Positions 1 through 20,136 of a stretch of DNA of 21,049 nucleotides are shown piece by piece. This stretch comes from a virus. The stretch is taken from the IMG/VR virus record IMGVR_UViG_3300010412_000097, positions 1 to 21,049 of that record; one strand, written 5' to 3'. The position numbers were made by a program, and so were the translations under genes. Each line of letters begins with the position of its first letter. The stretch's first letter is position 1. The notes beneath the pieces are model-generated. The model was not told the origin of the DNA. It searched no databases and saw nothing but the letters and a program-made list of their open reading frames with translations.

Positions 1-2069
1 GCAACTCGTGTAGTTAAATTTTCGTTGATAGTGCTATTGTAGTTAGCCATACCATCGAGAGTGTTATAAGAAGGTGGAATATCGTACAGAGGGTTAACTT
101 CTGTAAGAGAAGCCATGCCGATATACTGCCGCATGTTATCGGCAGCACTAGCGCCAATATCAACTGTTTGACCCTGTACAACTTGTACAACTGCGCCCTC
201 AGTTCTTACTATTAAACGAGCTAATGTAGCAAGACCTACAGAGGATTCGTTACCCGTGCCAACGCCCGCTATTCTAAACGTATTTCCGCTAGCACTGTTA
301 ACAAGATATGTTCCGTCATGCGATAAGGTGCCGCTAATCTGTATCTTATCACCATCTCGAAGTCCATGGTTCGCAGATTCCAATTGAAATCCGTCGCCGT
401 TATCTCTAGCTACTGTTGTTACAACGGAGTAAACTGCTGTACCTGAATCTGGTGTAGTAATAGAGCTGTTAATGTAGAATACTGTTGAACTTTCTACTTC
501 AACTTGCCAATCGCCGTCAAAACCAACTGAACCAGATACATTGATCCAGTCCCCGTCGTTAAGACCGTGGGCCCCTGTTGATGTTACTTTAACTGTATCA
601 CCGTCACCGTCGCTAAAGGCAACGGAAAGACTAGTTTCATTTATGCTACCAATCTTTTGAATTGTGTCGCTTCGTGTTGCCAACCAGTGAAAGTTTCCAC
701 CAGCTAAACTTATTGCTGCTTGATCTCTAGTTGAGACAACGACATCTGATGCAAGATATTCGCCTTGATCATATCTAGCTTTTTCTATCGCAGTTGAGCC
801 AGCATAATTTGCGCTTAACTTAATAGATTTAGCATTGGCTGCACTAGTTGGCGAACCACCATTTAATCCATCGTAGAACTCTTCTACTCGAAGAAACTTA
901 TCATTACTATCATTGATCTTCTTTATCCAGTCACCTTGCTTTAATTGACTAAATAAGCCAACAGCTCCGCCAACTGTATTTACGTAATTGCTTCCAGCAG
1001 TCCATTGAACTGGTTGATCAGAGGTATTGATAGGTTGGTTGCGAACCATCTCTACGTATAAAACCTCTTCGTCTGCAAGATTTACCGTGTGACCTGTAAA
1101 TGGAGCTGCATTACCGGCTCTAATTATATATGTTCTTAAGTCACTAGTTACTTTTAAGTTTATATCTTCTGTCCAGGTAAGGTCACCAGGAGTTCCAGCA
1201 TCATGGATCCATCGACCTTTAGACTTAAAAGCTGTAGCGCATGAATCTATAAAAGTTGATACAACACTGAATGTGCTTATGTCTTCGTACCAATGCGTTG
1301 TTCCGCCAAGCTCTCTGAGCTTTGACATTACAGCGTCCATCCACTCTTTCATTGACTGAATGTTCTTATCTGCCCCCTGAAATGGATTGTCGCCGGTGCT
1401 GTTAGTAATTGCGCTAGCAGGTTCAGTTCTCTGAAATGTAGCTGAAGGCAGCGATCTCCAAGCATAGTTACTGAATGGATCAGGATTAAGTCCTCCTGAA
1501 CCCAATCGGAAAAGCATATGTCTAGCGTCTTTAATTGACTCAATAGTTAATGCGCCGACTTTAATAATAGCTACTGGAATAGTGTTTGCTGGAAAAGATC
1601 CAACTGAAACATTCACTTCAACTTTAAGTACGGACTCCGTATTGATATCTTGAGTGAACTCTCCACCTGCTCCACCATCCTTATCAGGATCCCAGAATGC
1701 TCTAGTATCGGTGGAAGTGTTGACAGTGGTTAAAGTTAAGTATACATAGTTAATAGCATTTTTACGAAGTTCTGGAATAAGTGGTGCAGCTTGAGCATGG
1801 CCTTCTTCTAGACCATGAAAAAAAGAACCTGCACTTGATCCTGGATAAAATACAACTGAGTCTGCAACTCTGATTGCACAATTTTCCTCACCGATAGCAT
1901 TATTAGGATCGATAATGTCAAAGCCCTTTAGGATAAAGGGCTTTGAATCACCTACCATACCTTTGAGAAAAAATTTCCAATCACCGGCCGCATAACTATC
2001 TATTGATAATAAATCTGGAAGATCTAGACGTTCTGCGCTTGATACTAATAATCTACCTAATACTGCCAT
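1..2069 (-). CDS. Fibre-like / baseplate-peripheral structural protein, C-terminus missing (runs off left edge)
   Basis: An open frame of 689 codons begins at the ATG at 2069-2067 and runs without a stop off the left edge, so the C-terminus is missing. The start is supported by an AAGGTG Shine-Dalgarno-like stretch a few bases upstream. The N-terminal ~250 residues (MAVLGRLLVSSAERLDLPD onward) look like a conserved phage structural region and include an acidic Gly-rich stretch (WDPDKDGGAGGEF). Near residues 501 and 568 are two copies of a beta module of the form HGL-x-D-G-D-x-I-x-(I/V)-S-G followed by DG(T/D)W/Y, resembling FCCH-like modules of tail proteins. It lies last in the wedge cluster, the usual place of proteins linking baseplate to fibres or of the fibres themselves. 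I do not recognise a specific family; a gp10-like wedge/fibre-socket role is possible. Structural role likely, exact role uncertain. Confidence 0.8.
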   Translation of the reverse strand, partial: MAVLGRLLVSSAERLDLPDLLSIDSYAAGDWKFFLKGMVGDSKPFILKGFDIIDPNNAIGEENCAIRVADSVVFYPGSSAGSFFHGLEEGHAQAAPLIPELRKNAINYVYLTLTTVNTSTDTRAFWDPDKDGGAGGEFTQDINTESVLKVEVNVSVGSFPANTIPVAIIKVGALTIESIKDARHMLFRLGSGGLNPDPFSNYAWRSLPSATFQRTEPASAITNSTGDNPFQGADKNIQSMKEWMDAVMSKLRELGGTTHWYEDISTFSVVSTFIDSCATAFKSKGRWIHDAGTPGDLTWTEDINLKVTSDLRTYIIRAGNAAPFTGHTVNLADEEVLYVEMVRNQPINTSDQPVQWTAGSNYVNTVGGAVGLFSQLKQGDWIKKINDSNDKFLRVEEFYDGLNGGSPTSAANAKSIKLSANYAGSTAIEKARYDQGEYLASDVVVSTRDQAAISLAGGNFHWLATRSDTIQKIGSINETSLSVAFSDGDGDTVKVTSTGAHGLNDGDWINVSGSVGFDGDWQVEVESSTVFYINSSITTPDSGTAVYSVVTTVARDNGDGFQLESANHGLRDGDKIQISGTLSHDGTYLVNSASGNTFRIAGVGTGNESSVGLATLARLIVRTEGAVVQVVQGQTVDIGASAADNMRQYIGMASLTEVNPLYDIPPSYNTLDGMANYNSTINENLTTRV

Positions 2070-2106: not shown

Positions 2107-4620
2107 CTAGCCAGGATCTATTCCACTTCTATAAACATCTAAAGTTGCATACAATTGTTCAGGGTATCGAACAAGGAAGTCTACAAAAATACCTGCACTT
2201 TTTACAGACTTAATTAGCTCTTGAAGTATGAAGCGAGCCTCAGATGGGTCTGTGATATACGGAGCATATTCGGCAGCCTTGCCGCGTAAGGTATGCGGGC
2301 CCTTCTTACTAATTGCTACAACTGGAGATCCAGCTGAGTGAGTCTTCTTGAAGGTATAAGAAGGATCTATTGCTATGGTATTAGGCGTGGGTTTATAAAG
2401 ATATCTAACTGGACCTTCTTGGTTCTGCCGTCCATAGTTAAAGATTACGTAACCTCCACCTTCTGGTATGTCATTCGCCGAAGTATTTAACAACCTAACT
2501 ATTTTCCCTGCTTGAATGATATCGCTAGTTGACGCTGTTTTAGAAGATAGCACGTACGGTGCAGTTAGATCCCAAACATATGCGCCGGTTAATCGACTCA
2601 CATCGTTCTTTATGGCATCTATAAGTATGACTTTAGAGCCAGATGCAGACATGCCTATTCTTTCAACCCTACAAGTACCTGGAGTCATAGCAGAGCCGTC
2701 GCTGCCGATCAGATTAAAAGTAAATATGTTCCCACTGGCAGACGTAAGCATTGCAGTTGTATTTACATTCTCGCTAAAATTTATAGTAGATCCGGCAACT
2801 GTATTTGTTGCGTTAGTGCTCATTGTCACGCTCGTAGGCGTGACAGATACCACATAAGAATTTAAAGGAATATCAGGTCCCCATATCGTCATGCCAGGTA
2901 TTACGCCAGCAGTACTTGACATATTAGTTATAATATTACTAGTTGAACTAATATCTCCAGTCTCCGTGCTAAACAGTATGCCAGTTGAGTCAGCCACTAT
3001 TACAGACTCACCAATCTTATAGCCATGATTAGAAGATGTTGTCCCAGTTACTACGTTACTAGTTCGACTTAAAGATGTTAGTGAGAGTTGATTTAAGCTA
3101 GCAGCTACTGGTAAGTTTGGTGTTATTCCGGTCAACTGGTTGCCTAGAAACTTAACTGTCTGCCCTGTTGCAGTAGCGGCAGCTGGAAATGATATGTTAA
3201 CTAGGTTACCGGCTATACTAGTTACCCTAGCATACTCAGGTACTCCGCTAATCTTAACTTGTTGTCCAACTTGAATACCTACAGTAGATGCTAGATTAGT
3301 TATCTGAGATACACCTTCTACTATATCACCAGTAGTTGTAAGAGCTGCACGGCTAGCATATTCGTATCTCTGAAGCTTACTATTTAAGCGCGTATTGAAC
3401 TTCTTGGATAATACTTGATCTTCATCAGGCGTCAGTACTCTATATTGCAGTTCATCTAACTGCTCAAGAAAAAAGCTGCCTGTCTCTGGAAACAAGAATG
3501 CATCCGTAACTGTAAGCGATGTATTACTGTCTCTGCTAACCATTTGACTAAAAGCACCGTTTACATGCACAGAGCCTTTAAGCGATCTTTTGACTACCGG
3601 TGGCGACGTAGGCATCTCAACAGTTATTTCACCAGGAGAGGTTTCCCATGTCATGGCTCTTCTTGGATTAAGGTATGCAACGTATTTATTAGATTGGATG
3701 AACTTAACTTCATCTGATGAAACTTGAGTAAATGTTCCAGTAGTTGAAAATAGATTAGTGAACTTTATACTGTTACTAAAAAGATCTATTTCATTTATTG
3801 CGAAAGAGCCCTGATTGCCAGGAATATTAATTATTGCGATATCACCTACTTGAACTTGATCTAAACTAGGAGATGTTCCACCGGTATATGTAAAAGTAGT
3901 CTCGTCACCGACTTTAGAAACTGTCCATTGAGTATTAGATCCATTGCCAGCTGCACTAATAAAACCATTAAATCTTATGGCTACGTTCGCTCTTCCACCT
4001 AATATTCTAAGTGACCCTTTTGATCCGACAGTTTTACTAAAAAGTTTTATAAAAGTGTTCTTGGTGATACTATCGTAGTATGCAGTGGCGTAACAGTACT
4101 TAGCCTCTCTGTTTATAGCTCCAACTATCTCATTCGCAGTGGCAGCGCCTATATTCGTAAACTCATCAGTGTTGAAAATTATGCGATCGATGTTCTGTTC
4201 ATCGACCAAAACCTCAAGTTCCCAGCCATCACTCATAGCAAATGGACTAAAGTTTGAAGATGTTATAAAGGCAGTAGTAGATTCTTTGAAAAAGAATATA
4301 TCTAATAGCTGATCGATAATTAATTTAACTTGTTTTGGCTGATAAGAAAGAACTGGTATATACTGCCTAAACGAAGAATCATCCATTCCAACAAATTTTG
4401 GTCTAGCTATCTTGTTGTTTGCAGCTAATCTATCAAGATACGGTCGTGATGCTGTCTTTACAAAAAACTGCTTGCGAACCTCAGCTATCAAGTTTGCAGT
4501 TTCTTGATCGGTTTCGCCTATAGCATCTACAAGAGCTTTCCAATTAGTATTACCGCGCGTATTTAGATGGCGCGGTAATAGATCGTGCAGCTGATCCTTC
4601 TTGTCCTTATTTGCTGCCAT
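2107..4620 (-). CDS. Baseplate wedge protein, gp7/gpI-like, with inserted repeat modules
   Basis: This 837-residue protein probably forms part of the baseplate wedge next to the gp6-like protein. Residues 1-~120 have the gpI/gp7-type pattern: LLPRHL, then an Ile/Glu-rich helix, a basic-aromatic segment ending in PYLDRLA, and a D-x-x-FR-x-Y motif. Residues ~158-216 carry a module with an INRE helix, then S-K-T-V-G-S-K-G-S and GGRAN, like modules in the gp6-like protein. Residues ~252-290 hold a GD...N-Q-G-x-F module, and ~435-615 hold three short beta modules, including HGYKIGE and a VIPGMTIWG type common in phage tail proteins. The C-terminus (~755-837) ends in AGIFVDFLVRYPEQLYATLD. It starts one base after the gp6-like stop, with AGGGA nine bases upstream, so translation is probably coupled. 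The wedge role is fairly safe; the gp7 versus gpI assignment is less so. Confidence 0.72.
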   Translation of the reverse strand: MAANKDKKDQLHDLLPRHLNTRGNTNWKALVDAIGETDQETANLIAEVRKQFFVKTASRPYLDRLAANNKIARPKFVGMDDSSFRQYIPVLSYQPKQVKLIIDQLLDIFFFKESTTAFITSSNFSPFAMSDGWELEVLVDEQNIDRIIFNTDEFTNIGAATANEIVGAINREAKYCYATAYYDSITKNTFIKLFSKTVGSKGSLRILGGRANVAIRFNGFISAAGNGSNTQWTVSKVGDETTFTYTGGTSPSLDQVQVGDIAIINIPGNQGSFAINEIDLFSNSIKFTNLFSTTGTFTQVSSDEVKFIQSNKYVAYLNPRRAMTWETSPGEITVEMPTSPPVVKRSLKGSVHVNGAFSQMVSRDSNTSLTVTDAFLFPETGSFFLEQLDELQYRVLTPDEDQVLSKKFNTRLNSKLQRYEYASRAALTTTGDIVEGVSQITNLASTVGIQVGQQVKISGVPEYARVTSIAGNLVNISFPAAATATGQTVKFLGNQLTGITPNLPVAASLNQLSLTSLSRTSNVVTGTTSSNHGYKIGESVIVADSTGILFSTETGDISSTSNIITNMSSTAGVIPGMTIWGPDIPLNSYVVSVTPTSVTMSTNATNTVAGSTINFSENVNTTAMLTSASGNIFTFNLIGSDGSAMTPGTCRVERIGMSASGSKVILIDAIKNDVSRLTGAYVWDLTAPYVLSSKTASTSDIIQAGKIVRLLNTSANDIPEGGGYVIFNYGRQNQEGPVRYLYKPTPNTIAIDPSYTFKKTHSAGSPVVAISKKGPHTLRGKAAEYAPYITDPSEARFILQELIKSVKSAGIFVDFLVRYPEQLYATLDVYRSGIDPG

Positions 4621-4621
4621 A

Positions 4622-7600
4622 TTACGCTATCCCTATGTCTTCCGGAGTTATAGTGGCTTTTTCGTTATCGGCTATAGTTATTCTCTCTGTATTGGGCGTA
4701 GGATATGTAAATGTTACGGCTCCAACGCCTTTAATCTGCATTATAGACGCTATAATCTCAGAGAGAATTACATCTTCTCCTACGCCAAGAGTGTCTATAT
4801 AATTAATTACTACAGATTTAATATTGTTAGAGATATCGCCCAAGTTCACGCCATCATCTGTTGTAATGTCAATAGAGATGTTTATTCGTTTATTGAGTGG
4901 TGGCAATATCTCTATTGCTCCGCCGATTGCTCTACGACCTGGATATGTATCGCTATCTGGTTCAAAGCCGTCCACTATTCTTTGAACTCTTCTCAGTAGT
5001 CCAGTGTAATATAAGTATCCATCGATACCTGATGTGACATCAACACTGTACCCCAACTTACCCATATGCATAATACTAGTTGTATTGGACTCGCTAAACT
5101 TATATGACCTATTATCTGGTGTCATATATATTGCTCTTCTTTCAGGATTCAAGTCGTCAAGACATACATTTGTTATCTGTCTCATAGAGTAAAATCGATT
5201 GACAATGCTTTCTGTAACGTATAGTCCGTCCACGCTAACTGACATCAATCTATTAGTCTGAGATAGCGCAGAATTATTAGAAACTTTTATATATGGCTTA
5301 AGACCCACTGCATCTGTTCCTACGCCTATGATGTCAAAGGTGCCTATGTTACTTGTGCTAAACCAACTAGGATTAACTATATTTTGTACAGAGAGTGTGT
5401 CACCAGCTAATGTACTGTCACCCTCATAGACGGTGATATCGTCCACAGATTGCAATATGACACCTTCATTGTAGTCGTTATACATATCGTAGCTGACGCC
5501 AGGAGCTATCGCAGATGAGCCATTATAGCTACTACCTAAAGTAATAGTTGTAGCTAGTGCGGGTGCGGCTGGAGACATCGCAATAACCTGTCTATATGCA
5601 GAATCAGGGTCTTCTGGCTTCTTAACCCAAGAGCCAACAGTAACATACTTAAATGTTCCAGCAATACCAGTGACAACATTTGTGTTTGCACTCCAAGTAG
5701 CTTGCAAATCTTTATTATTGAATTTTTTTACAGTGTTTGTCTCGTTTGTAGCAGTGTCATTTTCAACTATCATTGAGTCATTATCAATGGCTAAAACCCT
5801 ATATAATCCACTATTATTGGCAGCAAAAGTAGATCCGCTTATAACCACATAATCATCCACTGCTACACCGCAATCTGTAAAGCGTGGAGATTCACCGCTC
5901 TGACGTTTGATTCTAGTTAAACCGTTTAGACCTAATTTTTCAACTCTATAACGAGTAGGCGTTAAACCGCTCTTTATCATTGCTGCGCCAACATTAACTT
6001 CACTAAAATTAGTACCCACATAAGAAAATGTAAACTGCGTCGAACTAATAGAGGTTACTGGGCCATATGTTGCATCAGGTAAATTATTACTATCCATCAC
6101 GTCAACCATGTCGCCAGTGTTTAATAGATGCGGTTTGACAGTGTTAACTGTTACTGTACCAGATGACAAGATTATGCTGTCAATTTCTATGTTAGCTGCA
6201 TGAGCTAAATTCCACTTAATAGACGGCGAAGGACATACATTGATCGTCATATTTAGACCAACAGCCTGAGATCCCATAGCCTTACCGCGAGGATTTATTA
6301 CATCTATATAATCGGCAGAATCATTGACATATACGATCGGAAAACCAGATACAACATCATCTCCTGTGGCGCTCAACTTATTGCCTTGTGCCCAGGCTGA
6401 ATCAGTGCCCGATACTAACAATTGATCGCCAGCTGCTATATTAGCTAAGGTGGCAGAACCATCGTGAGTCCATCTCCACACGAATCCGGCAGGTCTACCA
6501 TAAGACCCAGATACATCAGTGATCGTGAAAGATGTAGTACTAGTAATATTAGTTAACTTATTATTGAATAGGTATTTAGCGACACCAGTCGAAGCTTGTA
6601 CATCTATGGAGTCATTTGCGTCAAGTCTTGATAGTCTCTTAACGCCTTTATCGTTTTGAAGTTTTACGATATCACCTACGTTAAAAGTATCAGGATACGC
6701 TGGAACCTTAGTTAGGATAGTACTTCCACCAGTGTCAGATGACACTTCTGATTCGCCATATATATAAGCTTGAGCTTTATTGGCATTTCCGCCAATGACC
6801 TCTATGGCTCCTGATGATCCTAAATTTTTAGAAGTTATCTGTATATTCTTTCTATCGCTAGAAATACTAATATTAGCTACGATAGGTAACTGAGATAAAG
6901 CTTTCTGTGTTAGATGGTGATATATATTCTTCACTGTCACTGGTATCAATTTCAAGCGTTCACCAAGATCTGCGCTGTTGTAATTAGGAGCAGAGTCCAT
7001 CTGATAAACACTAGGAGCAACATTATTTAATGTTAGACTGGTTTTTAAAGTGAAATTTGGATTTGAGTTCTGAAAACTCTTGATCCAGTTGACACCATCA
7101 TACAAAGAAATATAACTGTTTAAAGATGACAAACCTGGATTATGACCAAAAGCAAGTGCACTAGAGTCACCAGAGTACGTATACACATCCTCTCTAGTTG
7201 ACTTGGATATAGTTAAAGCATCATTGCCGATAGGAGTGATTTCTACTATAGACTCTGCATTGACTGTGGTAGCAATAGTTGCAACATCAGTCCCAGTAAG
7301 CGGATATATTTGAACTCCGTTTATGTCTGTGATAGTTTCAGCCGTGCCAAGAGTACCGTCTGTTATAGTTACAGAAAAACCTGATGTCCCCGCTGCAGCA
7401 TTTACTAAATTACCATTATTCGCTGCTACAATTGTAATTATATTACTCGTACCAAGCACATTTGACGCTGAAAATGACGCATCGAAATTTATAGCCTGAA
7501 CAGTGGCAGATGCGACATTTATTGCGCTCATACCGGAGGTGACGCCTGCTACCTTAATAGATCTATCGGCGCCATGAAATGGCTCTGCAGTTCCGTTGTC

Positions 7601-10600
7601 ATCGACATCGTACCAAACTGCAACAGATCCGTCTTGATCGTTAAGTAAGAAGTATTTACCATCTATTGAGTTATTAGCTACGCCAGTTAAAGTGCTCACA
7701 GAGAAACCCGATGTTCCAGCGCTTGCAGAAGCTAAAGCTCCATTTATTAAGTTAGTGACTGTAATTTGATTTAATATTGCGGCGACAGAGAAAGCATTGT
7801 CTAACGCAATTGCTTGCGCTGTTTTATTGGCTACATCGTCAGCGGTATCGCCAGTTGCAACAGTAGCAACCTTTATTGCTCTATTTGCCCCATGCGGGGG
7901 TGCAGCTGCTCCGACATTATCTATATCATACCAAACAGCAACTGATCCTTGAGTATCATAAATTATGAAGTACATTTGATGCAAAGATCCTGCGATATCT
8001 GCTACAGTATTTATCGTATATACAGTTGGCGAACCAACTATATCTGCGATCGTTGTAACCAGTGCAGTCTCTGGTGTGCCAGGCGCAGTCACACTTGCAT
8101 TTGGATTTAGTACACGTATAGTAAGCGTACTCTTATTCCATATCCTAAATTGTCCACTATTTGACGCACTAACACCACTAGTACTTAAAATTGATAGCAC
8201 ATCACCAATTTGCACAGTCGCCAATGATCCTGATGAAAATGTATAGTCGTAGTAATCTCCAGAGGACGCAAGACCATTTGGAAAGTTCGTAGTGTCATCT
8301 GGATATGGCCCTTGGACACTTATAACTGTTCCTGGACCTGGAATAAGTGGAGATAGTGCTAGTGCTCTAGCCGCTCCAGATCCAAAAAAGTATGAATACT
8401 GATTCCATGATGGTGAGTTGCTAAGAGTAGTACTTGGGTCTTGATCAGGTGAATTAGGATACTCTAGGCTAAAGCGTAGTTTCTCGCCGTTAGGTCCAAA
8501 CTGAGCAGAACGAACTAACATCTTACCATCTACACCTGATACGCCGCCAGTTGAGTACCAGTTTCTTGCACGCATCCATATAGAGTAGTCACTAAAATCT
8601 GTCTTGTTGATGGATGTTCCCCATACGTTAACATTACTAAAATCTATACCTGGCTCGTTATCGTCGTCAAATGCTGAAAACTCAGTAGTTGTCGGCAAAA
8701 ACGAACCTACGCCTGATCCAGAATTTACCCTGGCGTTTCTTGACATTGCAATATCTATAGTCTTAGTGCTCGCATCATTGTCCATTACTACGACGATGCT
8801 ATCATCAGATGATATTGACATTGGTCGTTGCAACTCTATTTCATCACCTATGACGTGATCTAATTCAGTTCTAGCTGAACCCTCTTGAGTACCAACTTGA
8901 TCAGTTGGAATTTTAGCTTTTACGGTTTTTATTTGACCGCGATTGTTGCCGCTAGTAAAGCTTACATAGTCATCATAACTAACATTATTTGAGGTTAATA
9001 TACCTGTGGATTCTATTAGTTCGCTATATGGAGCTATATTTGGAACTGTATCGCTAGTTAGTGAGCCTTTAACATCTGTATATGTATGTCTATTTAAGAA
9101 TACATTGGCACTGACTGGCGAAGTTCTTTTGAACATAGACACCAGTGTCCTATCAGACGTCCTTGATGCTATATGTGGAGGATTTCCATATTGAGCTTGT
9201 GTAGTTTCAGTAAACAGTACTGCAGCGTTACCTATACATATAGGTAATGCAATACTGCCACCACTTTCTGTAGTAGATGTAAGCTTAATTGAATTAGACT
9301 TATATATACTAGCTTTAACATTTATCAATCTACTATTTAAAGAATCTACGATATTAGATATCGTCTCAGCAGGAGGATTAGATACATACGTGCCTCGCCA
9401 GATTTGAGGCAGACCATCTGTTTCAAAAGCCTTAATGTCTAGTGAATCGATCATCACCAGAGATCCCGGGACTGCAGGCTCAGAAACAACACCGATGTTA
9501 TCGACTTCTATAAAAGTATCAACGCCAGCAGTAGTATGTGATCCCTTTGCTTTAACTTTAAAAAGACCAGTATTATTAATATTCAACCATGTAGATCTAT
9601 AAGCAATATAGACAAAGTCTCCTGGTAGAACACTTGAAAAAGCATTTAGAGATGCACCAAGAATTCTCATAGTAGAGGCGGTCGGAGCGCTTATAGTTAT
9701 TGCACTGCCAACAGGTAATGACAATGACTTCTTATTGCAGAAAGAAGAGTCTGTAACAATAACAATCTCAGCAGGTCTACCTGAAGAATCAGTAGATACG
9801 TTATATGTGCCAGAAGTAGTAGACGAAGATATCGCAAAGCCTTTGGCATCTTCTACGCCAGCTGTAATAGTATCTCCGGGCGCAATTTCAGTCAATATTC
9901 TCAAGTTACCTGTTTGTCTATTTAACTCAAACTGAGCACTTTGACCATAAGATGTCTTAGGTAGATTTGGAAACCATTTTGCAACTAAAGAACCGCCAGA
10001 AATAACTATCGAAGACTCTGTGCCAATTCTATTAGATCTAATAACCATTGTTTCGCTTGGCGTGGCCTCTGCAGTAAGACCTGCAAATTTCCTGTTAAAT
10101 GCATCAACCCAGTCTTGTAAAGATAAAGATGCAAAAGACGACACACCTGTGAAATCACTGAGAGGGAACGATCTTGCTTGAGATGGCGTCCCATCAACTT
10201 CAATGACGATATCATCGGCCGGAATCACCTCAATAGTATTCCATTGAGCATAAGGTGCCGTTGTTAATTCTGCAGCACGACTCTTTTCTCTCAGGCGAGT
10301 GCTGTTCTGATATAGAGAGATGTAACTAAACTCATCGGTAGGAAACTTGATCGTAGAGTTTGCGTATAGTGCTGAATCATCTGAGTCACGCAGCTGTGCA
10401 ACCTGTATTCGCTCGACATCGCTAGCAACAGGGTATATTAGGATATTATTTGAGCTATTGGCAAAACGGGCTTTAAATAAAGTAGACTGATCATTGATAG
10501 CAATAATTACTTCAGATACTGTTGCTGCAGATATATTTAAAAACTGACTTGAACCAAAATAGATAGTCTCTTCCTGTCCATCAACTATAACTCTTAAGAA

Positions 10601-11743
10601 CGACCCATTTGGTAAATTAAATGGCCCTTCAGCTGTATTTATTACCTGAGGTCTAGGCACTGGATAATTTGATAGTTGTAAAAATTCTTCTTGGCCTGTT
10701 GCATTAGTTAATAGCTTATCCACAGACTGACCTGCGAATGAAGGTTGAAAACCGCTACCATCGTCTATATACAAGATAGACGGATCGCCAACTTTTACAG
10801 GCTCCGTCATTATTGCAGATGCAACTTGCTTACTGTCATCTGGGTCAGATACCCCAATAACTGATGCTAATATACTTGGTGCCGTACCTCGTGCAAGTGT
10901 GATTGAATACGACTTAATTCTATTGCGCAACTGAACATCAGTCTCAATATCTTGTCCGTTTGAGAATGCGGTTGTGTTTGTTACAGTTGCACCTGAAAAT
11001 GGTGCGACGTCGAACTGCGTAATAGAATTTATTCCGGCATTGCCCTGTGAACCTGGCACCAACGCTATAACTTCAATCCCTGTGACTATGTCTTCACCTG
11101 CCGGTATTACTGCCGATCTCAATGTTACATATTGAATTTCTGGATTTTGGTTATTGGCCGGAATCTTCACTATAGTTCCGGCATTTATCAACCTATCTGG
11201 TTCGCCTTGTGAGTCTATGACCACATCTGAAATTAAGTGATCTTTTTGAAGGGATGAACCTAATATAATTTCTGAATAAGTTGGATACACATTTATTGAA
11301 GTGTAAGGAATTGGACCTTCAAAATTATCAGTACCTCTACCGATATAGAGCGATCCACTTGAAGCCCAACCAGTAGTATTATTTACGTAAATCTTACTCT
11401 GTCCAGATATTGGAGCTGGCTTGATTACGTACAGACCGGTACTTCTTTTCGTTATATTAGTATTAGATATGTCAACTAATCCAGATGCTTTAATCGCAGG
11501 GCGTCTAGTAAGACCATAGTCTGCTGCCCTAGCGTCCAAATCATTGTTCTTGATGGCATCTATATTAAGCAACTCTAGCACATTCAATATTGCGGCATTG
11601 TTTTCATAGTCATTAGATGCAGCTGCCTCTAACAACGTCAACAATACTGAACCAGTATAGATGTCATTTAGTGGTGTTTCGGCAATGATCTTTCGGACCA
11701 TGTCGCCCAATAATTGATTCGGACTCTTGATTTCTATAGCCAT
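4622..11743 (-). CDS. Giant baseplate wedge protein, gp6/gpJ-like (Baseplate_J family), 2,373 aa
   Basis: This is the probable gp6-type wedge protein, which dimerises to form the ring transmitting the contraction signal. Residues 1-~110 match the family entry region (llEaaA, LDARAADYGLTRRPAIKASG). Residues ~255-300 carry the hallmark NGQDIETDVQLRNRI, followed by ARGT at 284-287. The C-terminus (~2268-2373) has the usual beta segment, then VINYIDTLGVGEDVILSEI and IMQIKGVGAV. Between the two cores lie ~1,900 extra residues; T4 gp6 is ~660 residues and P2 gpJ ~300. The insertion contains IN-like modules (~394-440, 536-595, 788-846, 1603-1660), GD...N-x-G modules (~708, 1180, 1772, 1963, 2125), a tandem duplication (1258-1458) and an HLL-type module (~1865-1910). 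No enzymatic motif is evident. The start has only a weak Shine-Dalgarno (TAGG close to ATG), behind a hairpin. Family call is strong; function of the insertion is unknown. Confidence 0.88.
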   Translation of the reverse strand: MAIEIKSPNQLLGDMVRKIIAETPLNDIYTGSVLLTLLEAAASNDYENNAAILNVLELLNIDAIKNNDLDARAADYGLTRRPAIKASGLVDISNTNITKRSTGLYVIKPAPISGQSKIYVNNTTGWASSGSLYIGRGTDNFEGPIPYTSINVYPTYSEIILGSSLQKDHLISDVVIDSQGEPDRLINAGTIVKIPANNQNPEIQYVTLRSAVIPAGEDIVTGIEVIALVPGSQGNAGINSITQFDVAPFSGATVTNTTAFSNGQDIETDVQLRNRIKSYSITLARGTAPSILASVIGVSDPDDSKQVASAIMTEPVKVGDPSILYIDDGSGFQPSFAGQSVDKLLTNATGQEEFLQLSNYPVPRPQVINTAEGPFNLPNGSFLRVIVDGQEETIYFGSSQFLNISAATVSEVIIAINDQSTLFKARFANSSNNILIYPVASDVERIQVAQLRDSDDSALYANSTIKFPTDEFSYISLYQNSTRLREKSRAAELTTAPYAQWNTIEVIPADDIVIEVDGTPSQARSFPLSDFTGVSSFASLSLQDWVDAFNRKFAGLTAEATPSETMVIRSNRIGTESSIVISGGSLVAKWFPNLPKTSYGQSAQFELNRQTGNLRILTEIAPGDTITAGVEDAKGFAISSSTTSGTYNVSTDSSGRPAEIVIVTDSSFCNKKSLSLPVGSAITISAPTASTMRILGASLNAFSSVLPGDFVYIAYRSTWLNINNTGLFKVKAKGSHTTAGVDTFIEVDNIGVVSEPAVPGSLVMIDSLDIKAFETDGLPQIWRGTYVSNPPAETISNIVDSLNSRLINVKASIYKSNSIKLTSTTESGGSIALPICIGNAAVLFTETTQAQYGNPPHIASRTSDRTLVSMFKRTSPVSANVFLNRHTYTDVKGSLTSDTVPNIAPYSELIESTGILTSNNVSYDDYVSFTSGNNRGQIKTVKAKIPTDQVGTQEGSARTELDHVIGDEIELQRPMSISSDDSIVVVMDNDASTKTIDIAMSRNARVNSGSGVGSFLPTTTEFSAFDDDNEPGIDFSNVNVWGTSINKTDFSDYSIWMRARNWYSTGGVSGVDGKMLVRSAQFGPNGEKLRFSLEYPNSPDQDPSTTLSNSPSWNQYSYFFGSGAARALALSPLIPGPGTVISVQGPYPDDTTNFPNGLASSGDYYDYTFSSGSLATVQIGDVLSILSTSGVSASNSGQFRIWNKSTLTIRVLNPNASVTAPGTPETALVTTIADIVGSPTVYTINTVADIAGSLHQMYFIIYDTQGSVAVWYDIDNVGAAAPPHGANRAIKVATVATGDTADDVANKTAQAIALDNAFSVAAILNQITVTNLINGALASASAGTSGFSVSTLTGVANNSIDGKYFLLNDQDGSVAVWYDVDDNGTAEPFHGADRSIKVAGVTSGMSAINVASATVQAINFDASFSASNVLGTSNIITIVAANNGNLVNAAAGTSGFSVTITDGTLGTAETITDINGVQIYPLTGTDVATIATTVNAESIVEITPIGNDALTISKSTREDVYTYSGDSSALAFGHNPGLSSLNSYISLYDGVNWIKSFQNSNPNFTLKTSLTLNNVAPSVYQMDSAPNYNSADLGERLKLIPVTVKNIYHHLTQKALSQLPIVANISISSDRKNIQITSKNLGSSGAIEVIGGNANKAQAYIYGESEVSSDTGGSTILTKVPAYPDTFNVGDIVKLQNDKGVKRLSRLDANDSIDVQASTGVAKYLFNNKLTNITSTTSFTITDVSGSYGRPAGFVWRWTHDGSATLANIAAGDQLLVSGTDSAWAQGNKLSATGDDVVSGFPIVYVNDSADYIDVINPRGKAMGSQAVGLNMTINVCPSPSIKWNLAHAANIEIDSIILSSGTVTVNTVKPHLLNTGDMVDVMDSNNLPDATYGPVTSISSTQFTFSYVGTNFSEVNVGAAMIKSGLTPTRYRVEKLGLNGLTRIKRQSGESPRFTDCGVAVDDYVVISGSTFAANNSGLYRVLAIDNDSMIVENDTATNETNTVKKFNNKDLQATWSANTNVVTGIAGTFKYVTVGSWVKKPEDPDSAYRQVIAMSPAAPALATTITLGSSYNGSSAIAPGVSYDMYNDYNEGVILQSVDDITVYEGDSTLAGDTLSVQNIVNPSWFSTSNIGTFDIIGVGTDAVGLKPYIKVSNNSALSQTNRLMSVSVDGLYVTESIVNRFYSMRQITNVCLDDLNPERRAIYMTPDNRSYKFSESNTTSIMHMGKLGYSVDVTSGIDGYLYYTGLLRRVQRIVDGFEPDSDTYPGRRAIGGAIEILPPLNKRINISIDITTDDGVNLGDISNNIKSVVINYIDTLGVGEDVILSEIIASIMQIKGVGAVTFTYPTPNTERITIADNEKATITPEDIGIA
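7370..7972 (-). repeat. Tandem duplication (106-residue period) inside the gp6-like gene
   Basis: Two consecutive copies of one module occupy residues 1258-1363 and 1364-1458. Both contain GSVAVWYD (1266-1273 and 1372-1379), then HGA-(N/D)-R-x-IKVA, an Ala-rich helix-like stretch, and end in AGTSGFSV. Just over half of the residues in the front part of the two copies are identical. The DNA over GSVAVWYD is also close, which is consistent with duplication inside this gene. Modules of this general type occur in phage tail and exported bacterial beta-rich proteins; a binding or spacer role is inference. Confidence 0.85.
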
Positions 11744-11772: not shown

Positions 11773-13374
11773 CTATTGATTATTCACTGTAAAACTAATA
11801 GGGACTACAGTGCTTCCACCGGCCATTCTCACTGTCATTGTAATAGTTATAGCTGAAGCAGCATTAACACCACTGTTCGCATCAATATAATCAACATTGA
11901 TGCTCTCTATTCGATCAAAGCGATCATCTGCTGCTATTTGACCTGTCAATGAATCAACTATGAGACCGCGCACTTGATTAATATTGCTATTACTTGAGCC
12001 TAATACATTAACAAGTCCGAACTCAGGATGGGCCCTAAGTGAGCCTAATTCTGTGACCACTTTTAACTTTAAAGCCTGAATTGCATTGTCTATGCCATAA
12101 CTTAACTTAAGATCACCGTTAGTTCCAAAAGATATATCGCCATCTTCTGCTATATCGAGATCGACCTTCATCTTTTGCTCATCTATTGGCTTTTTTGCCA
12201 AAAACCACGGCATCTCTTCATTTCTAAGATCATCTAACGGTTGAGATGACGGTATAAGTATGTAAAATGAACTATTTATTGTATTTGGCTTATAGACTCG
12301 CACATAGGCACCTTCGCTAACTTTATAATCAGATAGATTATCGTCACCATCCAACTCCAATATTATCTCACCGGATACTGGTATCTGTCTTATATTAATG
12401 ACAGTTCTCTGATTTGCGATGACTTGAGTATTAGATTGTAGGAAGACTGGTTGATTAATATAGAATTTATCTATATTCAACTCACCATTTATGTCTTTTT
12501 CAGCTATATTTATCTGATTACCTTTTCCGTTAGAAAGCAGAGATATTTGCTCCCCCACTTCATCTATGTATGGAGGTTTTAGTCCGTTTGCAATGGCTAT
12601 GTCTATCCACTTATCTCCGCTACCAAGATATCTATACGCCAGTGACTGTAAAGATTCGCCATAATTTAATTTGACTAAATTACCAGAACGATACTGAGCT
12701 ATATCTATCTCTGGATTATTAGCATTTGCTCTCGCAAGTGCAAATGGATCTAGCGATAGATCAACAGAAAATAAGTTGGCCAATATAAAATCTACAGACT
12801 TTATTGCGTTCTGTATGGCTAATATTTTATTTACGTCAACTATAGTTGCATCTATCTGCTGAGCTATCGCACTTCTTCCTACTGCCTTGTCATAGTCAAC
12901 ATCATTTAGACCTATTACATCTACCTGTCTGTCTCTATAGTCTATCAAATTTTTCTTAATATCGAGAAAGTCATTCTTTGAAAATGCCTGCACTCTTGCG
13001 AGCTCTGCCTGTATTATGCGCTCTTCTTCGTTATTTGTATTGATTGAATTTATGGCAATTATGTCAAACAATCCGTTAAATCTATCCACTATCTTAGAGT
13101 CAGATAGTGGATTTATTTTCTTAGGTGAATTTCGCTGTGACTCTATGAACGAACTAAAATCAAGTATCTGTTGGTTTATAAAGTCAGGGTTATCTGTGTT
13201 GTCAAGATTGCTTATCAAGTCAGGCTTTATAAATTCCCACTCACTCTTCAGATATTCCCATCTAAGTGGTATCAAAGATGGAACATCCCCAAGCATAAGT
13301 TCATCTCCGGCCTGTACTTTAAACCAGAGACTAAGATCAGACATGCTTTTACTTGCAGCTTTTAATGTTGCCAT
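11773..13374 (-). CDS. Baseplate wedge fusion: LysM/gp53-like N-terminal part plus gp25-like C-terminal domain
   Basis: This 533-residue protein joins two baseplate parts usually encoded separately. Residues ~225-280 form a LysM-like/gp53-like segment: KLNYGESLQSLAYRYLG, then KWIDIAIANGLKPPYI, then a closing beta strand. Residues ~400-533 look like the gp25/GPW domain, with AIQALKLKVVTELGSLRAHPEFG and a final strand set ITITMTVRMAGG. Many gp25 proteins carry an EPR motif; the aligned position here reads FDRI, so the motif is degenerate. Residues 1-~220 are mainly helical and unassigned, and ~285-395 is a beta-rich linker. In T4-type baseplates gp25 and gp53 join gp6 in the inner wedge, and the gp6-like gene follows directly. 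Only three bases separate its ATG from the upstream stop (TAG-AGC-ATG), so translation is probably coupled. The domain calls are pattern-based. Confidence 0.78.
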   Translation of the reverse strand: MATLKAASKSMSDLSLWFKVQAGDELMLGDVPSLIPLRWEYLKSEWEFIKPDLISNLDNTDNPDFINQQILDFSSFIESQRNSPKKINPLSDSKIVDRFNGLFDIIAINSINTNNEEERIIQAELARVQAFSKNDFLDIKKNLIDYRDRQVDVIGLNDVDYDKAVGRSAIAQQIDATIVDVNKILAIQNAIKSVDFILANLFSVDLSLDPFALARANANNPEIDIAQYRSGNLVKLNYGESLQSLAYRYLGSGDKWIDIAIANGLKPPYIDEVGEQISLLSNGKGNQINIAEKDINGELNIDKFYINQPVFLQSNTQVIANQRTVINIRQIPVSGEIILELDGDDNLSDYKVSEGAYVRVYKPNTINSSFYILIPSSQPLDDLRNEEMPWFLAKKPIDEQKMKVDLDIAEDGDISFGTNGDLKLSYGIDNAIQALKLKVVTELGSLRAHPEFGLVNVLGSSNSNINQVRGLIVDSLTGQIAADDRFDRIESINVDYIDANSGVNAASAITITMTVRMAGGSTVVPISFTVNNQ

Positions 13375-13377
13375 GCT

Positions 13378-14367
13378 CTATCTACCAAAAATATCTATTG
13401 CGCCAAGTGTACTCTTCAATAAAGATTTTCCATTCTTGGCAAATTTTTGAAATTTACTAAAAGCAGAGGAACCCTCTACGCCATTTAGCTGTAAATCACT
13501 TTGTCTTTGTTTTAATAAAATACCTGAGTCTATTTTGTCGGCCACTGATCTAAGATTATATCCACGCAGTTGTATGCTGTAATAATACAGCATCGGGTTA
13601 TCAGCTGATCGTCTAAGCGTGAAACTTCTAACTGCAACATCGTAACTATTACCGTCTTTATAATTAAAGAATGTCAGTGGATGTCTCGTTCTTTCTGTAG
13701 TATTTGTGCTACCATCTGTCGTAATACCAGATACATCATCTTTGTATTTCTTTAGAAAGCGATATAAATTATGAAATGCAACATAGCCGCTATTTGCATC
13801 AAGAAAACCTTTTTCACGTTTAGTGGAAGAGTCGCTCACGAGATCTACAGCTTTATTTGCAGCCTTGGCTATTGCTCCCAAAGTCTTTGAAAAGAAGCCG
13901 CCCGCTACACCAGCTATTCCTCTAGATATAGGAGTTGAGATCCTTCCAGGTCTTACGGCGCTACCATAGGCTTGAGACGGTGACCCAAAATACGGGTCTA
14001 CAAATTTTGGAGCCATTCCGGTTGTGCCCTCGATAGATATATCGTAATACCTTATCTCAGAGTGTTCCTCAACAGTTCCATATAGAGTTGGAACTATATT
14101 GGTTGCAAAATTAGTATTAATAGTTAAATTACTTGGGCTTATAGGTAGAAACATCGTTACTGATGTCCCATTCCTATCTATGAAGGTGAAACCGTATGGT
14201 TTAGCTAAATACCAGTTTGAGTAATCCCCATTAGGATCCAGTGAGTACACACTATTCATCTCAAACTGTTGAATAGTAGTCTGAACCTGCGTTCTAGGCT
14301 TCTTAGGAGACAGGGTGTCTTTAATCAGACCTTCCAATGATTTTTTAGCATTATCAAAAATACTCAT
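13378..14367 (-). CDS. Probable tube/baseplate junction or hub-associated protein (XkdP/Afp7-like N-terminal type)
   Basis: The 329-residue product has a central segment around residues 70-125 (FLPISPSNLTINTNFA, TLYGTVEEHSE, YYDISIEGTTG) that resembles the first domain of XkdP/Afp7-type LysM proteins, which join tail tube to baseplate. That family typically has a LysM domain at its C-terminus; none is visible here, but one is present in the next gene. The middle (~155-185) is basic and Ala-rich, and residues ~225-275 (HPLTFFNYKDG, YYYSIQLRGYNLR) form a second beta-rich part. The gene lies between spike and gp25-like genes, where a baseplate protein is expected. The Shine-Dalgarno is poor: the sequence before the ATG is mostly A and T. 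A structural role is likely; the family link is tentative. Confidence 0.62.
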   Translation of the reverse strand: MSIFDNAKKSLEGLIKDTLSPKKPRTQVQTTIQQFEMNSVYSLDPNGDYSNWYLAKPYGFTFIDRNGTSVTMFLPISPSNLTINTNFATNIVPTLYGTVEEHSEIRYYDISIEGTTGMAPKFVDPYFGSPSQAYGSAVRPGRISTPISRGIAGVAGGFFSKTLGAIAKAANKAVDLVSDSSTKREKGFLDANSGYVAFHNLYRFLKKYKDDVSGITTDGSTNTTERTRHPLTFFNYKDGNSYDVAVRSFTLRRSADNPMLYYYSIQLRGYNLRSVADKIDSGILLKQRQSDLQLNGVEGSSAFSKFQKFAKNGKSLLKSTLGAIDIFGR

Positions 14368-17220: not shown

Positions 17221-20136
17221 TTATCGCTCTTTTGCGTAGCCAGGTTTAGTCATATTTCTTTGTTTGGGTGCAGGCGCTGTTGCAGGAGATATTCCTGCCT
17301 TTCCAGCCAGTATATTTGCTGCTTCTAAAATCTTACTTGCCCCACTGCTAAAAATTTCCATAGACGAACCTTTAAATTCTCCAGCAGCTTCTCCAGCAGC
17401 GGTTGACATCTTCTTCTCAAACTCAGGTCCTTTAGACTCTATGAGTTTAGACATCTCAGAAAGGGCTTCGAAAGCCTTTTTAGCGTCACCAAACGCTGCA
17501 GCACCTTGCTTCGCCGCCTCCGCCATTTGGGTAAAACCAGAAGTAGCCATATTGAAAGCTTCCTCTTGTAGCTTTCCTGCACCTTTACCAGCCATTGCCT
17601 CTTCTGCTTTTGCCTTACCTGTAGTGTTAGTCTCTTTTATTCCAACTATAGATCTATAGTATTCGTCACCAGCTAATTTAAACTTCGAACCTATTTGCCC
17701 AAGCGCCGTCTGTTCTTCTTCAGAAAGACTGCTATAGTCCTGCTTGTTCATTGCTTTTGACACTATACTTTTTCTCATTGTATCTGAGACAAGAGCGAAG
17801 CCTGTACCTTTACCTTCCACCATAGAGTACATTTGATTTTCAAGCTGAGTTTGTATAAACTCTTGTGGACTAAGTTTACTTTCATCTAGATTTACGCCTC
17901 GTTTTCTAAGCGCAGCCTTTATGTCAGCATCTGTCTTACCAGACAATCCTCTAAGTTCTTCAGTGGACAGTTGTGTTGCAAAAATTTCTGCTCCGCCACC
18001 TAACCCTGTTGTCTTTGAAGTTCTTGAAGTATTAACCATACCAGCAAAACTAACTTCAGTATTGGTTGTTACCTCTCGTGCAACCGCTGCTGCACTAAGT
18101 GCTCGCTGTACTGCGAATTCTTCATTTTTTTGATTAGGATCAATGTTTGCACCTAATAGTGCTGCACTTGCAGAAGTAACATCTATTCCTGCTGCGGTTG
18201 CAACAGCGTTACTCTGAACCATTGCTGCCGTATTCTCCGCCATCATATTTAGAGCTCTTGAACTATCAAGAGATTTAGAGAATGCTGCTTCAAGTACAGA
18301 AGCAAGTCCGGCTTGCGGATTATTTGAGCCAGCTTGTGCTAACTGAGTCATGCGTTGCATATTCTGCTGAGCAGTTCCAAAACCAGCTCTTTGTAAATTT
18401 TGAGCAGTATACACCTGCTCTATTCCAAAAGTGCTACCCATCTGCTCTACGCCAATTTGAGAAAGCTGATTGAACTGCTCGGGGCTCATTCTTGCGGCAG
18501 CCATCCTATTCATGTTCTTGTCCGATACGACTTCGTTCATGAATGCCTCTCCGGCTCCGCCCATCTGCATAGATATATTACCTGCACCAACAGCGTAATC
18601 TCTAAAGCCTTGAACTTGAATTGCTTGATTTCTCACTATTTGGCGATATGTATTTAGGCGGGCTTGCTGACCTGCTATATCAACCTGACCTGCGGTTATA
18701 CCTTGTGCCATATCTGATATATTTACTGTAGCTGAGGCGGCAGCAGACATAGTCTGCATTAATCCTGATTCACCAACCTCTGCAGCTTTAGCTAAATTAC
18801 CAGTTAACGCACCGCCTGGTATACTAAGTGCTGCAGCCTTCATTTTTGCGACGCCGGCGACCCCTTGTGCGACATTTCCACCTATCTCAAGACTTTTAGA
18901 GATATTAGCCATTAAGCTCAATTCTCCTCCAAAGTCCATCGCATTATCGAACGCACCAAGCATCATTTGCGACTCTATATCGCCAGCTCTCGCTCTACGA
19001 TAAGTGTCGTACTTCTCATTTTCCAACGCAGCGAATCCTGCGCGATTTTGCTCCTTAGTTAATCTTTGACTTACACCGATTGACATCGCAGCACCAGCTA
19101 GAGCGCCGAAACCTCCGCCGAAAAGCTGTGCTATATTAGCTATATTGCCGTACCTATCACCGCGACCCTGTGCAGCTGCCTCCATTTCAGATAAGCGCTT
19201 GGAAGATGCTTCTCTTTGTCTATGCAGTTCAGCTTCTTTTTCCGCTGCGTCCCCAGTAGTCCTCGATAGTTCCTCAAATATCTCCTTTAAGTTCTTCATC
19301 TCCTGCGCTATACCAGAGGTTAGATCTGATATACCAATTTTAGTTAAAGTACCCTTCCCCGCCTGAGCAAATCCACTACCGTATTCAAATTCTTTTTGTC
19401 TTGAGAGGGTTGTTGCTCGATCTCGTTGAACAATTTGGCCATATTGAGCTATGGACTTTGCAGCTACAGATTCCGGATCAGTTCCAAGCTGTCTTTGATA
19501 TCTTGCTGCAACATCGTAGCTTGCCATCTGCTTCTCTGTGGCTCTAATTTTATCAAGTATTGGCCTCATTTCATTTGATGTTTCTGGATCAAAGTCTCCG
19601 CCGGGGATCCACATCCTCGCATTAACGTTCTCTGCTTCTCTATGCAAGATCCTCAACTGCTCTTGATCCCGGCGCCGAAGTTCCTCTATTTCTTTAGCTG
19701 GTCGTGCAGCCATTGATACGCCAAGATTTTGAACCTCAGTTGTTCTCATGGCTCTAGTTATTTGACCATTTATACTGCTTGGTGAGAAGATTTTTGATAA
19801 AAATGTTGAGTATTGAGCTCTACCTCTTTCAGTTGCACGAAGCTCATGTCCTGATACATTAGCCTCGGCTTTTGCAAGAACTGCGTATTGCTCTGCGATA
19901 AGGGGTTCACCGTAAGGATTTTGTTCAAGAGCTTTTATAGTATTCGGTACGGAGATACGTAATATATCGCGCTCTTCTAACGCTCGTCGATATTTTTCAC
20001 CCTTAGGCTTAACTTGCTCACTAATTCTTGACACCATATGCTGGTGCTCATGACTTAAAAACTCTTCTTCGCTGCCAAATACAGCTTCACCAAAGCCATT
20101 TATTGGTCTATCTTTCTGATTAGGATCTTTAGCCAT
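17221..20136 (-). CDS. Tail tape measure protein
   Basis: The 971-residue protein is the probable ruler filling the tail tube during assembly. Position is the main evidence: it follows the overlapping chaperone pair and precedes the hub. Composition agrees: long Ala/Gln/Glu/Met-rich helical stretches, few aromatics in the middle, coiled-coil-like segments at ~270-325 and ~830-935, and a Gly-rich hydrophobic stretch around residues 330-355 (IAQLFGGGFGALAGAAMSIG). No lytic domain is evident. The N-terminal HEHQH at residues 29-33 fits HExxH only by pattern. At the usual rule of about 1.5 angstrom per residue, 971 residues would correspond to a tube of roughly 145 nm (inference). The gene begins five bases after the previous stop with a poor Shine-Dalgarno, so its translation may depend on the upstream gene. 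Confidence 0.85.
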   Translation of the reverse strand: MAKDPNQKDRPINGFGEAVFGSEEEFLSHEHQHMVSRISEQVKPKGEKYRRALEERDILRISVPNTIKALEQNPYGEPLIAEQYAVLAKAEANVSGHELRATERGRAQYSTFLSKIFSPSSINGQITRAMRTTEVQNLGVSMAARPAKEIEELRRRDQEQLRILHREAENVNARMWIPGGDFDPETSNEMRPILDKIRATEKQMASYDVAARYQRQLGTDPESVAAKSIAQYGQIVQRDRATTLSRQKEFEYGSGFAQAGKGTLTKIGISDLTSGIAQEMKNLKEIFEELSRTTGDAAEKEAELHRQREASSKRLSEMEAAAQGRGDRYGNIANIAQLFGGGFGALAGAAMSIGVSQRLTKEQNRAGFAALENEKYDTYRRARAGDIESQMMLGAFDNAMDFGGELSLMANISKSLEIGGNVAQGVAGVAKMKAAALSIPGGALTGNLAKAAEVGESGLMQTMSAAASATVNISDMAQGITAGQVDIAGQQARLNTYRQIVRNQAIQVQGFRDYAVGAGNISMQMGGAGEAFMNEVVSDKNMNRMAAARMSPEQFNQLSQIGVEQMGSTFGIEQVYTAQNLQRAGFGTAQQNMQRMTQLAQAGSNNPQAGLASVLEAAFSKSLDSSRALNMMAENTAAMVQSNAVATAAGIDVTSASAALLGANIDPNQKNEEFAVQRALSAAAVAREVTTNTEVSFAGMVNTSRTSKTTGLGGGAEIFATQLSTEELRGLSGKTDADIKAALRKRGVNLDESKLSPQEFIQTQLENQMYSMVEGKGTGFALVSDTMRKSIVSKAMNKQDYSSLSEEEQTALGQIGSKFKLAGDEYYRSIVGIKETNTTGKAKAEEAMAGKGAGKLQEEAFNMATSGFTQMAEAAKQGAAAFGDAKKAFEALSEMSKLIESKGPEFEKKMSTAAGEAAGEFKGSSMEIFSSGASKILEAANILAGKAGISPATAPAPKQRNMTKPGYAKER

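Follow-up and report, generated by a model that had tools for sequence, protein, structure and literature searches.

The window, an IMG/VR virus contig of 21,049 bases, carries its tail genes as a consecutive run on the minus strand (Table 1). One of these genes encodes a gp6/gpJ-like baseplate wedge protein and has the neighbours typical of that wedge family, a gp25-like sheath-initiator gene upstream and a gp7-like gene downstream, the latter matching Phi92 gp146 and phi812 TmpF weakly (E 0.003-0.007). Further upstream, two additional tail-type genes separate the tube-initiator-like gene from a large gene that matched no Pfam or PHROG family and that, judged by size and position, is probably the tape measure. 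The initial annotation had placed the wedge protein at 5030-10755 without naming a strand; that range marks the insert described below (residues ~330-2238), while the whole gene is longer at both ends. Its size estimates were sound: the product is 3.6 times as long as T4 gp6 (660 aa; about 3.5 times had been claimed) and nearly eight times as long as P2 gpJ (~302 aa).

Table 1. Tail genes of the window and features of the gp6/gpJ-like protein (residues are those of the 2,373-aa product).
Feature	Residues	Coordinates	Strand	Remarks
Fibre-like tail gene		3..2069	-	Cut by contig end; shares insert modules
gp7-like wedge partner		2107..4620	-	837 aa; downstream of gp6-like gene; shares insert module
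gp6/gpJ-like baseplate wedge protein		4622..11743	-	2,373 aa, 252 kDa
gp25-like sheath-initiator gene		11773..13374	-	Weak LysM-like stretch; upstream of gp6-like gene
Tube-initiator-like gene		13378..14367	-	
Large gene, tape-measure-like		17221..20136	-	
Four helices, putative equivalent of wedge domain I (core bundle)	1-78	11510..11743	-	AlphaFold compared with XM1 gp16
Beta wing, putative equivalent of wedge domain II	80-265	10949..11506	-	pLDDT mostly 85-93; compared with XM1 gp16
N-terminal part of Pfam Baseplate_J	179-279	10907..11209	-	Model 30-125
Insert, in putative equivalent of wedge domain III	331-2235	5039..10753	-	1,905 aa, ~202 kDa
FliD/flagellin-like beta-alpha-beta module	365-445	10409..10651	-	Also in next gene
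Second FliD/flagellin-like module	491-603	9935..10273	-	
GD...NxGxFxV barrel module	672-755	9479..9730	-	Relatives carry Kelch repeats near residue 751
Third FliD/flagellin-like module	770-856	9176..9436	-	
Barrel module	1126-1219	8087..8368	-	Similar to 672-755, E 4e-10
First copy of ~110-aa module	1233-1341	7721..8047	-	
Second copy of ~110-aa module	1342-1466	7346..7720	-	
Barrel module	1727-1820	6284..6565	-	Includes slot ~1761-1763
Barrel module	1960-2016	5696..5866	-	Overlaps weak PHROG 1236 match
Barrel module	2108-2180	5204..5422	-	
C-terminal part of Baseplate_J, putative rest of wedge domain III	2236-2373	4625..5038	-	Model 179-254

The two ends of the protein were each recognised as gp6/gpJ sequence, in agreement with the initial annotation, by Pfam and PDB profile searches and by AlphaFold models of the two halves compared by Foldseek, with PHROGs adding a match for the N-terminal part (PHROG 6, E 9e-33). 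Searched as a separate fragment, residues 1-330 matched positions 30-125 of the Baseplate_J model above the cut-off (E 9e-14), and the 138 residues at the C-terminus matched on their own with 24.3 bits against a cut-off of 21.1 (E 2e-5). The 1,905-residue insert thus separates Baseplate_J positions ~125 and 179, consistent with the separation of about 1,900 residues proposed earlier, and Baseplate_J was split likewise in relatives G001, G002, G005, and G010. Both half profiles also found phi812 ORF62 in the PDB, the N half at residues 128-205 (E 3e-8) and the C half, weakly, at residues 260-316 (E 0.02), so that about 1,950 residues here take the place of roughly 50 in ORF62.

AlphaFold models of the separately folded halves (residues 1-1150, pLDDT 73; residues 1174-2373, pLDDT 78) placed each end, modelled within its own half, among gp6/gpJ wedge proteins. 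The N-half model matched those of phi812, Bas63, phiCD508, Mu, and diffocin and, more weakly, T4 gp6; the C-half model matched the phi812 wedge protein (1.9 A over 92 columns) as well as diffocin, PhiTE, and R2 pyocin, and its PDB matches beyond the C-terminal ~100 residues, mostly low-probability beta-domain chains, were left out of the analysis. Helices were predicted with moderate confidence (pLDDT ~55-80) at residues 8-22, 33-42, 46-58, and 67-75, as in a core bundle, and by comparison of helices and strands with XM1 gp16 we infer the equivalents of wedge domains I, II, and III. In XM1 gp16, domain III covers residues 192-404; it mediates dimerisation between wedges, and its match in T4 gp6 is 340-489 (PMC10457771). 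On the same comparison some 30 residues of domain III would precede the insert, which leaves domain III as a sizeable additional domain, as in Alg11-type wedge proteins. Because pTM was low for both half models (0.35 and 0.52), they do not fix whether the modules are arranged as an arm, as a cage, or in a collapsed form.

Tested alone, residues 331-2235 yielded no Pfam family above cut-off, and no recognised binding or enzyme domain was found by Pfam in the window protein's own insert. Low-confidence regions of the models were found at the junctions (331-354 and 2229-2281) and at 1512-1655. The composition previously ascribed to the insert held in part: Ser and Thr were enriched (11.9 and 9.3%, vs. 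8.2 and 7.7% in the ends) and Asn slightly so, but Gly was not, and low Cys is not a distinguishing feature, with five Cys in the insert and none in the ends. Repeated modules had likewise been reported; two recurring types were supported by profile comparison, while obvious repetition was confined to a single pair (~1233-1341 and 1342-1466). In profile self-comparison, 43 of 1,540 pairs of sequence segments scored above 30, against 1 of 600 reversed controls; the segments overlap, so the pairs are not independent. The beta-alpha-beta type fits the matches of the N-half model to FliD (E 3e-4) and, more weakly, to flagellins, with which it shares a strand-strand-helix-strand build; this is a fold resemblance of single modules with no overall homology, and the insert modules matched no flagellin family in Pfam. 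Modules homologous to parts of the insert also occur in the two following tail genes, the one at 365-440 in the gp7-like gene and region 1970-2120 in its fibre-like neighbour (both at E ~1e-11); relatives show this consistently, which suggests module exchange among baseplate genes. Across the family, copies of the ~110-aa module ranged from none detected to seven per member, and L025, L027, L035, and L049 have further copies in tail genes located downstream.

The full-length family comprises 33 non-identical members of 1,849-3,878 aa, that is, the window protein and 32 further homologues, and the open reading frame is intact in every complete member but L035, where a frame break divides it into 847 + 3,026 aa. 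One member belongs to an isolate with a closed genome, Myxococcus phage Mx1 (PMC10720576), in which the 1,925-aa homologue (~200 kDa) is deposited as 'baseplate protein J-like' (WNM70274.1). A similar 'Baseplate protein J-like' entry of ~2,377 aa is present in BFVD, and database entries such as A0A6J5KUV1 (~2,377 aa) are, like the Mx1 protein, homologous full-length large J-like proteins. Baseplate_J was searched for in 13 records, namely complete Mx1, eleven IMG/VR records above 140 kb, and one of 96 kb; only the gp6 gene exceeded the cut-off in them, and G002 had a second, weak match below it. Two related contigs fell into Bacteroidota bins (Cyclobacteriaceae and Cytophagales), which hints at hosts but could also reflect binning. 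In Mx1 (L010, 14112-19644), a nicotinamide phosphoribosyltransferase and a nicotinamide-nucleotide adenylyltransferase, of NAD-salvage type, are annotated between two baseplate genes.

The family also settles whether an assembly or sequencing error joined two genes, for which nothing speaks beyond the unusual length. Intact non-identical members from many metagenomes and the closed Mx1 genome refute such a fusion, and neither GC nor GC3 shifts along the gene; we regard the chance of this artefact as negligible.

In the family alignment, length differences were confined to a few places in the insert. Near residue 751, L044, L046, and L050 carry an additional 363 to 501 aa, with Kelch repeats in L044 and L050. 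Between the tandem ~110-aa modules, L026 and L031 carry an additional 212 to 219 aa; four tandem copies of the module were considered for this slot and rejected, its content being an ice-binding-like domain (PF11999; E 1e-28 in L026 and 2e-36 in L031) at residues ~1357-1556 of the Baseplate_J protein. At ~1761-1763, six relatives have gained 134 to 140 aa and L024 has gained 1,638 aa, comprising ten FG-GAP repeats (E 2e-100) and extra ~110-aa modules, and near 1823 L015 has gained 209 aa. A 3,878-aa gp6-like protein with ten FG-GAP repeats in one slot was observed in L024/L049 (10001-21634), and the same gene is the one broken in L035. Propeller and ice-binding-like folds usually bind ligands. 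These slot domains, carried by relatives rather than by the window protein, are the main support for an adhesive role, which is plausible; the window protein, like most members, is without recognised accessory domains.

Identity was compared between the window and seven close relatives, two of which lack part of the comparison. The core ends were most conserved (72-84%), followed by the insert at 48-73% (base, residues 300-660, 61-73%; remainder 48-67%) and the gp25-like gene at 57-63%, while the tape-measure-like gene (30-35%) and the distal part of the fibre-like gene (26-56%) were lower. By these values the insert is better described as a conserved scaffold with variable slots than as a fast-changing receptor binder. 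Variation driven by a diversity-generating retroelement (DGR) was considered and rejected, as 13 relatives yielded no reverse transcriptase and the window has no repeat as long as 40 bases.

The protein shares with T4 gp6, phi812 ORF62, XM1 gp16, and P2 gpJ a core at both ends, by profile and by fold, as well as the gp25-like gene upstream and the gp7-like gene downstream; however, T4 gp6, ORF62, and gp16 have 348-660 residues, whereas in the window protein ~1,900 interrupt domain III. The nearest structural precedent is Alg11 of AlgoCIS, also a gp6-like wedge protein, in which domain IV extends from the tip of domain III and builds a hexagonal spike cage (PMC8894135). That domain contains two carbohydrate-binding modules, and its authors suggested that they may help in attachment (PMC8894135). 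The differences are considerable, since domain IV spans residues 278-643 (~366 aa) of a protein that forms Alg11-Alg12 heterodimers in an injection system, while the insert here is five times longer, is built of other modules, and belongs to a phage. Alg11 was absent from the PDB profile searches of both halves and from the 50 Foldseek matches listed per half. Large J-like homologues have already been deposited, under automatic names only, and the cage of the extracellular contractile injection system (eCIS) is a published parallel; in the literature searched we found no description of the insert, nothing relevant on the Mx1 baseplate, on J proteins with Kelch, or on DUF3494 in phage tails, and no account of a jumbo-phage gp6 of similar size.

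Taken together, we moderately favour the reading that the protein is a gp6/gpJ-type baseplate wedge subunit of a myophage whose modular arm forms a skirt or cage with adhesive slots, because the Alg11 cage is the closest precedent. Residues ~1-330 and ~2236-2373 would jointly build the wedge core, with core-bundle helices, wing, and the domain-III dimerisation fold, while the ~1,900 residues within domain III would fold into small beta modules linked in series. XM1 and T4 have two gp6-type copies per wedge (PMC10457771). With the same number here, a single gp6 gene, and a gp7-like partner, 12 arms carrying ~2.4 MDa of insert would leave the iris ring distally; that the 12 copies are identical is an assumption, given the second, below-cut-off match in G002. 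Together the arms would surround the spike as a largely rigid skirt or cage. They would meet the host surface early, a role made likely by the discrete slots that accept binding-type domains in relatives, and hold the tail in place until a gp6-gp7 rearrangement triggers contraction. The earlier suggestion that the insertion projects from the wedge and adds surface-binding sites or stiffens the baseplate is thus plausible, and the propeller and ice-binding-like domains in the slots of relatives, together with the AlgoCIS precedent, lend support to this functional reading.

The main rival to an adhesive skirt or cage is a purely structural one, in which the insert is a cage or collar holding the wedge ring and spike, without host binding, and the extra domains of relatives are decorative. 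In conservation the insert is on a par with the gp25-like gene and surpasses the distal fibre, and its small barrels and FliD-like folds are common in tail parts; relatives have, however, repeatedly gained propeller or ice-binding-like domains at discrete slots, and we consider the purely structural account rather unlikely. Those accessory domains in several relatives, and the modules common to the insert and the fibre-like gene, could also be taken to mean that the insert is the main receptor-binding device in place of tail fibres. This appears improbable, since the window retains a fibre-like gene that is more variable toward its distal part, and most members have no recognised accessory domain. 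Far less credible still is cleavage in the virion, by which the insert would be set free to act as separate structural proteins: the great length of the chain and its modular construction are all that speak for it, whereas no protease or cleavage-type domain was found, the two core ends are expected to remain within one fold, and the reading frame, L035 aside, is unbroken in all complete members.

Returning to the adhesive skirt or cage, the ~1,900 residues of small beta modules that split the gp6 core probably form a cage or skirt in contact with the surface of the host, because relatives place propeller or ice-binding-type domains at fixed positions of the insert. More tentatively, and with somewhat less than even confidence, a widespread group of myophages of 145-175 kb may build a giant cage or skirt of 12 gp6 arms, with domain III acting as a modular docking platform for the swapping of propeller and ice-binding-like adhesive domains, a phage counterpart, evolved from different modules, to the spike cage of eCIS. 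In contractile-tail baseplates gp6 ranks with the most conserved parts, and it is commonly regarded as a compact builder of the ring. A ring protein carrying up to ~3,400 inserted residues with binding-type slots suggests that the ring core can host innovation in host recognition, as the eCIS cage had already hinted, and Mx1, a phage of Myxococcus xanthus (host strain DK1050), provides a culture-ready test object for the large gp6 family.
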